64,000 nucleotides of DNA, from the NCBI GenBank assembly GCA_017999365.1, contig JAGNLW010000003.1, positions 124,001-188,000 of the forward strand. The letters are read 5' to 3'. The position numbers were made by a program, and so were the translations under genes. The first letter of the stretch is position 1. The number at the start of each line of letters is the position of its first letter. The notes beneath the pieces were generated by a model. The model was given only the letters and a program-made list of their open reading frames with translations, did no database searches and was not told the DNA's origin. This document shows, in pieces, positions 57,322 through 60,081 of the stretch. The stretch is from Candidatus Aminicenantota bacterium (lineage in GTDB: Bacteria; Acidobacteriota; Aminicenantia; Aminicenantales; Saccharicenantaceae).

Positions 57322-58854
57322 TCAGGGCCGCGGGCCGCCGATGCGGTCCATCATGCGGTACTGGACGGCTTCCGAGACGTGGGGCGTCGCGATGCCGTCC
57401 GCGCCCTCGAGGTCGGCGATCGTCCGGGCCACTTTGAGCACGCGGTCGAAGGCCCGGGCGCTGAAGCCGAGCCGGGTGACGGCCGTCTCGAGGAGCCTCT
57501 CGGCCTCGGGCGGCAGGGCGCAGAACCGCTTGACCTCCTTCGGGCCCATGCGGGCGTTGGTGAACAGGCCCGACCCGGCGAAGCGGGCCGACTGCCGGGC
57601 CCGGGCCGCCGTCACCCGGGCCCGGATGGCCGCGGAGCTCTCGGCCGGGGCCCGCGAGACGATGTCGCCGAACTTGACCTCGGGCACGTCGAGCTGGATG
57701 TCGATGCGGTCGAGGAGCGGGCCGGAGATCTTGGCGTAATAGCGGGCCTTCTCGCTGTCCGTGCAGTCGGCCGCCTTGCCGAGCAGGCCCCGGCGGACGT
57801 CGGCGCAGGGGTTCATGGCCGCGACCAGCATGAAGGCCGAGGGGAAGGTCACCGCGTAGCCCGAGCGGACGACCGTGACCCGGCCGTCCTCGACGGGCTG
57901 GCGCAGGTCCTCGAGGACCTTGCGCCGGAATTCGGGCAGCTCGTCGAGGAAGAGGAGCCCGTGGTGGGCCAGGCTGACCTCGCCCGGCTTGGGCACCAGC
58001 CCCCCGCCGACAAGACCGGCGTCGGTGACCGTGTGATGGGGGGCGCGGAAGGGACGGATCCCGACCGTCCCCGACCCGGCCAGCAGCCCGGCCGCGCTGT
58101 GGACCCGGGTCACCTCGAGGCGCTCCTCGTAGGTCATGTCCGGGAGGATGGTCGGCAGGCGGCGGGCCAGCATGGTCTTGCCGGCCCCGGGGGGACCGAC
58201 CATGAGCACGTTGTGGCCCCCGGCCGCGGCCACCTCGAGGGCCCTCTTGGCGTGCCGCTGGCCCTTGACGTCCTCGAAGTCGACGGGATAAGCGGCCGGG
58301 GCCGCCGGCTCCGCGTCCTCGAAACGGCTGGGCGCGACCTGGCCCGGCTCGCGCAGCAGACGGACGACCCGGACCAGGTCCTCCAGGGCGAAGACCTCGA
58401 GGCCGCGGACGAGGGCGGCCTCGCGCCCGTTGGCGTGGGGCACGACCAGCCCGCGGAATCCCTGGGCCGCGGCCATCAGGGCCACGGGCAGGATGCCCCG
58501 CCCCGGCTTGAGCCGTCCGTCGAGGGCCAGCTCGCCGATGAAGAGATACTCCCTCAGCCGGGCCGCCGGGACGATCCCGAGGAAAGCCAGGAAGCCCAGG
58601 GCGATGGGCAGGTCGAAGGCCGAGCCCTCCTTGCGCCGGTCGGCCGGGGCCAGGTTGACGGTGACCCGGTTGGACTCCAGGTCGTATCCGCAGTTCTTGA
58701 GGGCCGCCCGGACCCGTTCCTTGCTCTCCCGGACGGCGGCGTCCGGCAGGCCGACGGTGACGAAGGTCGGGAAGCCGGCGCAGATGTCGCACTCGACCTC
58801 GACGGGGTAGGCGTCGATGCCGTGGAGCGCGGCGCTCGTGATGCGGTACAGCAT
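57322..58854 (-). CDS. comM: ComM/YifB-type Mg-chelatase-like AAA ATPase
   Basis: 510 aa. An N-terminal Lon-protease-like (ChlI) domain (residues 1-~165, no catalytic Ser-Lys pair evident), Walker A GPPGAGKTML, Walker B LLFLDELPEF, sensor AAMNPCAD and the C-terminal Mg-chelatase motif region with DRIDIQLDVP. ComM family members are branch-migration helicases that help integrate transforming DNA. Weak ribosome site; stands alone downstream of the structured intergenic region. Confidence 0.93.
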   Translation of the reverse strand: MLYRITSAALHGIDAYPVEVECDICAGFPTFVTVGLPDAAVRESKERVRAALKNCGYDLESNRVTVNLAPADRRKEGSAFDLPIALGFLAFLGIVPAARLREYLFIGELALDGRLKPGRGILPVALMAAAQGFRGLVVPHANGREAALVRGLEVFALEDLVRVVRLLREPGQVAPSRFEDAEPAAPAAYPVDFEDVKGQRHAKRALEVAAAGGHNVLMVGPPGAGKTMLARRLPTILPDMTYEERLEVTRVHSAAGLLAGSGTVGIRPFRAPHHTVTDAGLVGGGLVPKPGEVSLAHHGLLFLDELPEFRRKVLEDLRQPVEDGRVTVVRSGYAVTFPSAFMLVAAMNPCADVRRGLLGKAADCTDSEKARYYAKISGPLLDRIDIQLDVPEVKFGDIVSRAPAESSAAIRARVTAARARQSARFAGSGLFTNARMGPKEVKRFCALPPEAERLLETAVTRLGFSARAFDRVLKVARTIADLEGADGIATPHVSEAVQYRMMDRIGGPRP

Positions 58855-59219
58855 GTGTTCTTATCTCTAAGGACGGGGAATGACCGGTACTTATCTCATT
58901 CCCGTGATCCCCTCTCAAGGCGGCGAAGGGGATTGTCCTCGCAGATCCCCGTTGCTGGAGGAGGGGCGGCAGGGAGCGGAGCTTGCGGAGCGACCATCAG
59001 CAACGCCCCGGAGTGACTCGAAGGGGTGTTGCTGGGAAATCTCGAAAGCAAGTGCTTTTTCCAGATATTTCGCAGGATCGGGACTCCGGGCGCTCCGTCC
59101 CGATCCTGCCTGGTTCGCTCACCGGGTTCGCTCCCCGTTCCCCGGGGGGCCGGGGAGCCAGAGGATATCCCCAAGCCGAAACCGAGAGAGGGAGAATACG
59201 GGACCCGGGGAAAGACCGG
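58855..59219. other. Gene-free 365-nt region dense in inverted repeats
   Basis: No convincing gene; short open frames have low-complexity, Arg/Pro-rich products. Holds five inverted repeats (listed under the structured element) and a 13-bp-period direct repeat GGTTCGCTC (59112 and 59125). Promoter of comM must lie here but no clear hexamers are visible. Confidence 0.6.
58876..59109. repeat. Structured element with nested and alternative hairpins
   Basis: In order: GGGAATGA/TCATTCCC (58876-58903); ATCCCCT/AGGGGAT (58907-58933); CGTTGCTG/CAGCAACG (58950-59005); GCAACGCCCC/GGGGTGTTGC (59000-59032, one G-U pair), which competes with the preceding stem for the same CAGCAAC; and a perfect 13-bp stem GCAGGATCGGGAC/GTCCCGATCCTGC (59072-59109) with a 12-nt loop. 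Either a structured RNA or a palindromic/MITE-like repeat. Confidence 0.55.
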
Positions 59220-60005
59220 CTATTTCCCGGTATATTCCTTGGACAGCTTGTCGAGCTCGGCCTCGATCTCCCGGCGCGACTTGAGCATGAGCCGGGTCGT
59301 GTTCCCGGTCGGGGCCCGGACGCCGTCCGGGTCCCGGTCCCGCAGATCGCCGAGCGGTTCCGGCGACTCCGGAGAGGCCTCGGCCCCGGCTTCGCCCTCG
59401 AAGCGCGGCCGGACGCCGAAGACCTTGTCCCTGACGACGGGCACGGTCAGCTTGGAGATCTCGCGCAGGGTCTCGAAGACCCCCACCCCGCTGACGGCCT
59501 TGGCCTCGATCCAGGGCGACCGGCGGGGATTGAGGAGGTTGTTGAACGTCTCGACCGGGATGAGGTAGTCGAGGTCGCGCTTGTTGTACTGGAAGACGAG
59601 GGGGATCTTCATCAGGTCGATGTCGTGCTGAAGGCAGTTCCGGCGCAGGCCGTCGAAGCTCTCCAGGTTGGCGTCGAGGAGCGGGATCTGGGAGTCGGCC
59701 ACGAAGACGATGCCGTCGGCGCCGCGCAGGACGCTCTTGCGGGAGGCCTCGTAGAAGACCTGGCCGGGGCAGGACATGAGCTGGAAATGGACCTTGAAGT
59801 CGCCGATCATGCCGGCCCGGATGGGCAGGAGGTCGAAGAAATAGGTCCGGTCGGCCTCGGTCTCCAGACAGACGAGCTCGCCCCGGTAGGCGGGGTCGAG
59901 CTTGTGGTAGATGTAGCGGAGGTTGGTCGTCTTGCCGCTCAGGCCGGGGCCGTAATAGACGATCTTGATGGCGATCGTCTTGGTCGCGTGGTTGATGAAC
60001 GGCAT
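59220..60005 (-). CDS. MglA-like small Ras-family GTPase
   Basis: 261 aa. G1 YYGPGLSGKTTNLRYI, switch region EADRTYFFDLLP, G3-like CPGQVFYEASRKSVLRGADG, G4 YNKRDLD. These are the signatures of MglA, the polarity and motility switch with a conserved MglA-specific switch pattern. It has a C-terminal extension of about 60 residues (acidic then helix DKLSKEYTGK-like) beyond the ~200-aa GTPase. No MglB neighbour here. Start ATG 60005 with GGGAG; a further ATG at 60026 is possible. Confidence 0.88.
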   Translation of the reverse strand: MPFINHATKTIAIKIVYYGPGLSGKTTNLRYIYHKLDPAYRGELVCLETEADRTYFFDLLPIRAGMIGDFKVHFQLMSCPGQVFYEASRKSVLRGADGIVFVADSQIPLLDANLESFDGLRRNCLQHDIDLMKIPLVFQYNKRDLDYLIPVETFNNLLNPRRSPWIEAKAVSGVGVFETLREISKLTVPVVRDKVFGVRPRFEGEAGAEASPESPEPLGDLRDRDPDGVRAPTGNTTRLMLKSRREIEAELDKLSKEYTGK

Positions 60006-60081
60006 GACGACTCCCGGTGTCGTCATAGTATCGCCTTAACCGGGCCGACGCGTCAAGTCCGTGAAGGGAGGCCCGCCGGTG

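Follow-up and report, generated by a model that had tools for sequence, protein, structure and literature searches.

A copy of a lineage-specific palindromic repeat family probably fills the structured gap upstream of comM in a Candidatus Aminicenantota genome

The gap between an mglA-like gene and comM/yifB in a Candidatus Aminicenantota bacterium (family Saccharicenantaceae) raises the question of why an elaborately folding element lies directly upstream of comM. The window, by which we mean the whole stretch of DNA analyzed, spans 64,000 nucleotides of contig JAGNLW010000003.1. Both genes are on the minus strand, 365 nt apart, and the element occupies most of the gap from the mglA-like stop codon to the comM/yifB start (Table 1). 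An initial annotation had offered three readings: a structured RNA, a cis-regulator of comM, or a palindromic mobile repeat. We conclude, with a probability of roughly 0.78, that the element belongs to a lineage-specific family of non-autonomous palindromic repeats, which work in the manner of a REP heterodimer/REPIN or a MITE. It is built of inverted, diverged units with compensatory changes in their stems, has many dispersed copies, and is present at this site only in the window's genome.

The description of the gap as highly structured is borne out by folding. The plus-strand RNA folds at -198.7 kcal/mol (shuffles -154.8 ± 5.1; z -8.55) and the minus strand at -174.1 (shuffles -142.6 ± 5.8; z -5.45), and no shuffle was as stable as the real gap on either strand. 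We found the inverted repeats GGGAATGA/TCATTCCC (58876-58883/58896-58903) and ATCCCCT/AGGGGAT (58907-58913/58927-58933), and the perfect 13-mer stem (59072-59084/59097-59109) with its 12-nt loop, all as annotated. The single G-U pair lies within the stem 58998-59009/59023-59034, at a position that is G-C in most sister copies having this stem. The annotated interval, 58876-59109, captures the structure and misjudges its extent; other copies conserve 58910-59193, and the paired base runs from about 58883 to about 59219. The words GTTGCTG (58951), CAGCAAC (58998) and GTTGCTG (59028), from which two exclusive hairpins had been proposed, are present, but a conserved switch is not: of 18 distinct A-type copies carrying GTTGCTGG in the arm, only 4 contain the core word CAGCAAC. 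Competing pairing is a trait of some copies and not of the family.

Alignment of copies resolves the element into two diverged homologous units that face each other in inverted orientation. Each unit has the layout GGGAGCG...AGCGACC, then CAG-stem-CGGAG..C.CG.AG-stem-CTG, then GGGAAATATC, with a conserved core of about 77 nt. The hairpin loop CGGAGYGRCTCGGAG and the flank GGGAAATATC are conserved, and by inspection the hairpin is bordered by CGACC(AT) and GGGAAATATC. The outer arms pair with each other and align in inverted orientation, so terminal inverted repeats of the kind expected in a MITE are present.

Table 1. Features of the mglA-like/comM interval (positions in the window)
Feature	Positions	Strand	Basis
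comM/YifB-family Mg-chelatase-like AAA ATPase	57322-58854	-	TIGR00368, 566 bits; Mg_chelatase domains
Whole element, outer paired base included	58883-59219 (about)		Copy conservation 58910-59193; outer stem from fold; copy alignment
Left arm, A type; partly pairs with right arm; retained in short copies	58910-58966	+	Query 56-112 co-occurs with 283-339 in short copies
Core unit A: GGGAGCG-type direct repeats, hairpin, GGGAAATC flank	58967-59043	+	Model R2, 91.2 bits
Hairpin A, 12 bp including one G-U, loop GGAGTGACTCGAA	58998-59034	+	Stem search; covariation
Linker separating the inverted cores; variable, itself partly palindromic	59044-59063		Copy alignment
Core unit B, homologue of A in opposite orientation	59064-59140	-	Model R2, 68.6 bits; unit alignment
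Hairpin B, perfect 13 bp, 12-nt loop	59072-59109	-	Stem search; covariation analysis
Right arm, B type	59141-59193	-	Query 283-339 present in short copies
Small-GTPase-like protein, MglA-like by inspection	59220-60026	-	Weak TIGR00231 match below its cut-off; order with comM conserved in relatives

Searched with the gap sequence, the same genome yields over 20 additional copies, full or partial, at 70-98% identity, which makes the element a repeat. Six of these copies are about 285-305 bp long at 88-92% identity, and others are 82-84% identical. Short copies keep the two 57-nt arms around a different small center, single units without long arms also exist, and lone half-elements in this genome are fragments without a distant partner. 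Every one of the 13 genus genomes has matches. A covariance model of the core (R2), with 79 candidates scored per genome, counts 2 to at least 79 core units in each, the highest counts being lower bounds; of 167 units, 96 are accompanied by an inverted partner. R2 was also run with strict filters on 47 genomes belonging to other genera of the same family or order, and none of them gave a unit at E ≤ 0.001. When GTDB species genomes were scanned for the exact pattern, three MAGs bearing the label Candidatus Aminicenantes or Acidobacteria gave 31 matching stretches; a single Nocardia stretch was set aside because the hairpin is absent. Plasmid, phage and viral collections contain no match to the element, and the titles and opening abstract lines of publications on Aminicenantes and palindromic repeats mention nothing of it.

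The mglA-like gene was located in 11 other genomes. In nine of them comM follows at about 50-100 nt and the element is absent; in G006 a 1.3-kb stretch of other sequence separates the two genes, and the G004 locus does not include comM. Among the genomes compared the element is at this site only in the window's genome, and since nine relatives keep the gene order without it, we interpret it as an insertion in this lineage and not an ancestral regulator. The mobile repeat of the initial annotation is thus supported by both the many genome copies and the empty site in nine relatives. A second polymorphic site is seen in a closer pair of genomes, in which some units were compared at the nucleotide level: a G005 unit directly follows a terminator-like hairpin, and the G010 counterpart has the same hairpin followed by eight T. 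No clean target-site duplication was found at sites with an empty counterpart, where the flanks have diverged. In G006 the 1.3-kb gap (L101) contains coding-like sequence that by eye resembles acetate kinase.

The stem sequence varies among copies and the pairing is kept by compensatory change. In 84 distinct sequences, aligned by fitting to the structure, the 12 stem pairs are formed in 96.5% of cells, double changes occur at all 12 pairs, and 212 cells are changed on both sides (49.3 ± 5.6 in shuffles); pairing drops to 35-43% in slid controls. A structure-free MAFFT alignment of 16 sequences gives 95.3% paired and 42 double-changed cells (13.2 ± 2.6 in shuffles). The hairpin therefore covaries strongly, and compensatory change in a mobile hairpin can be read clearly from this natural family. 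Selection on the folded strand is the simplest reading, and palindrome correction by template switching could also yield the covariation. Stem cells with G-T outnumber those with A-C (22 vs 7), a hint of a strand-specific fold that is weakened by the relatedness of the sequences and their structure-fitted alignment.

These data bear on the possibility that the element is a genus-specific structured RNA, either a small RNA or an mRNA 3′-end element, that has spread and been kept for its RNA function. The covarying hairpin, with its conserved loop and flank, and the G-T excess fit such an RNA and are compatible with the initial annotation's RNA proposal; the same covariation signal could, however, come from folded single-stranded DNA or palindrome-correcting mutation. 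Presence at this site varies between species, the inverted pairs fold on both strands, and a consensus scan finds no promoter-like site. No Rfam family matches at gathering score; with E up to 1 allowed, a single lncRNA family appears, scoring well short of its cut-off. We consider it unlikely that the element has spread and been kept for an RNA function.

We judge it rather improbable that the element is a classical MITE, in which a DDE transposase acts on the outer inverted repeats and the hairpin cores are passengers. Bacterial MITEs and palindromic repeats such as ERIC, BOX and NEMIS are non-autonomous, intergenic, palindromic and lineage-restricted, and the BOX interior is modular. Compared by description, the element is like them in each of these respects, and its outer inverted arms, its modular interior and the short copies with another center would suit a DDE mechanism. 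A difference is that no parent transposon was found, and no target-site duplication either at sites with an empty counterpart, whose flanks have diverged. In addition, single units occur without long arms, and no transposase gene was found between such ends in the window's genome, Y1 being the family searched by name. Reading frames between nearby units look ordinary by inspection and none is a transposase; no autonomous copy was found in this genome, with Y1 the transposase family searched.

Palindrome elements derived from IS200/IS605 have a hairpin near one end. The element shares this, and its single unit has a sharp left boundary; in contrast to those elements it has no linked Y1 transposase, and G005 has many units and no Y1 match. 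REP dimers are inverted hetero-dimers with structured spacers, found mostly between tandem or convergent genes, and for one REP class, the CGTC type, there is no dedicated transposase (PMC3733652). Our family resembles REP/BIME/REPIN sequences (PMC3733652) in having many dispersed intergenic hairpins, often as inverted hetero-dimers with structured spacers, in its stem G-T pairs and in being commoner between convergent and tandem genes, and resembles CGTC-type REPs (PMC3733652) in the missing dedicated transposase. It differs in its core, which measures about 77 nt (a REP unit is 20-40 bp) and has direct repeats upstream of a 12-bp stem, in its exchangeable outer arms, in that no GTAG or CGTC tag was seen beside the hairpin, and, compared with the GTAG class, in that no RAYT/tyrosine transposase gene is flanked by the unit (25 Y1 loci). 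Because size, tag and flanking genes all disagree, we file the element as a dispersed palindromic bacterial repeat that works like a REP dimer but is not a REP.

Under the repeat-family explanation, the element would move as a folded single strand recognized in trans by a transposase, possibly through the hairpins with their conserved loop and flank, the outer palindromic arms, or both. Y1 (RAYT-like) enzymes are the leading candidate mobilizers within this explanation, though we hold this tentatively, at somewhat below even odds. The genus has 25 Y1 loci, two of them in the window's genome. The unit is in the flanks of none of the 25 (best R2 match E 0.19), and several of these loci have other repeats on both flanks. 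A BLAST of the two Y1 flanks in the window's genome with the element, in search of a RAYT partner, gave short weak matches only. These two RAYT-like genes, L058 (G000:C7:321469-321792) and L059 (G000:C4:715367-715681), have, by inspection, other palindromic words at their borders, GTGAATGCCAGGCA and GGGGACATGTACC, which suggests that the genome has additional REP families.

Of 67 ends of the REP GGGGTCAAACCTA in G007, 16 form exact junctions with a unit. At three places there two REP-unit junctions face each other, 185-205 nt apart, and an inverted unit pair was confirmed at one of them. In G006 and G007, Y1 genes have REP words of the GGGGTCAAACCTA type on either side. Because REP ends join the unit and such REPs flank Y1 genes, it is plausible that the unit hitch-hikes with RAYT-type REPs in G007. 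This does not account for G005, which has at least 50 units and 96% completeness and in which no Y1 match was found. Some members of the genus contain many copies of a compact inverted pair, GGGGTCAAACCTA-17 nt-TAGGTTTGACCCC (G005 has about 100 ends), which the window's genome lacks.

The many units and missing Y1 gene of G005 point to an enzyme of unrecognized kind if the 77-nt hairpin core is itself an independent mobile module that is recognized through its fold and conserved loop, joins up with varying outer arms and, in one relative, now serves as a spacer of transposase-type REPs; we regard this version as doubtful. The family lends itself to asking by which enzyme REP-like elements are moved when they have no RAYT of their own.

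It is very improbable that the element is a cis-acting switch regulating comM through two exclusive hairpins: the 7-nt words and the position directly upstream of comM would suit this reading, but nine relatives have the same gap without the element, the alternative pairing is found in 4 of 18 copies with that arm, and the same element lies beside many other genes. As no relative has the element there, conserved regulation of comM, as initially annotated, is not supported, and explaining the striking structure as a mobile repeat removes a false lead. With the element taken as an inserted repeat, any effect on neighboring transcripts would come as a side effect of insertion; the element might, for example, stabilize the 3′ end of an mglA-like/comM transcript or attenuate it.

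Of 127 units with callable neighbors, 42 are in convergent, 64 in tandem and 21 in divergent gaps; background gaps by length (the window and some loci) are 15% convergent, 58% tandem and 26% divergent. Units are thus roughly commoner between convergent and rarer between divergent genes, as REPs are, a bias that is only indicative because genes were called crudely, paired units were each counted and the background includes loci chosen for the element. The idea that single units always lie beside a hairpin was not established, since the left-side excess over random is weak (median -10.9 vs -9.5 kcal/mol). At L157, L209 and L237, in relatives, a unit appears to be joined to the 3′ end of a reading frame and may provide its last codons and stop.
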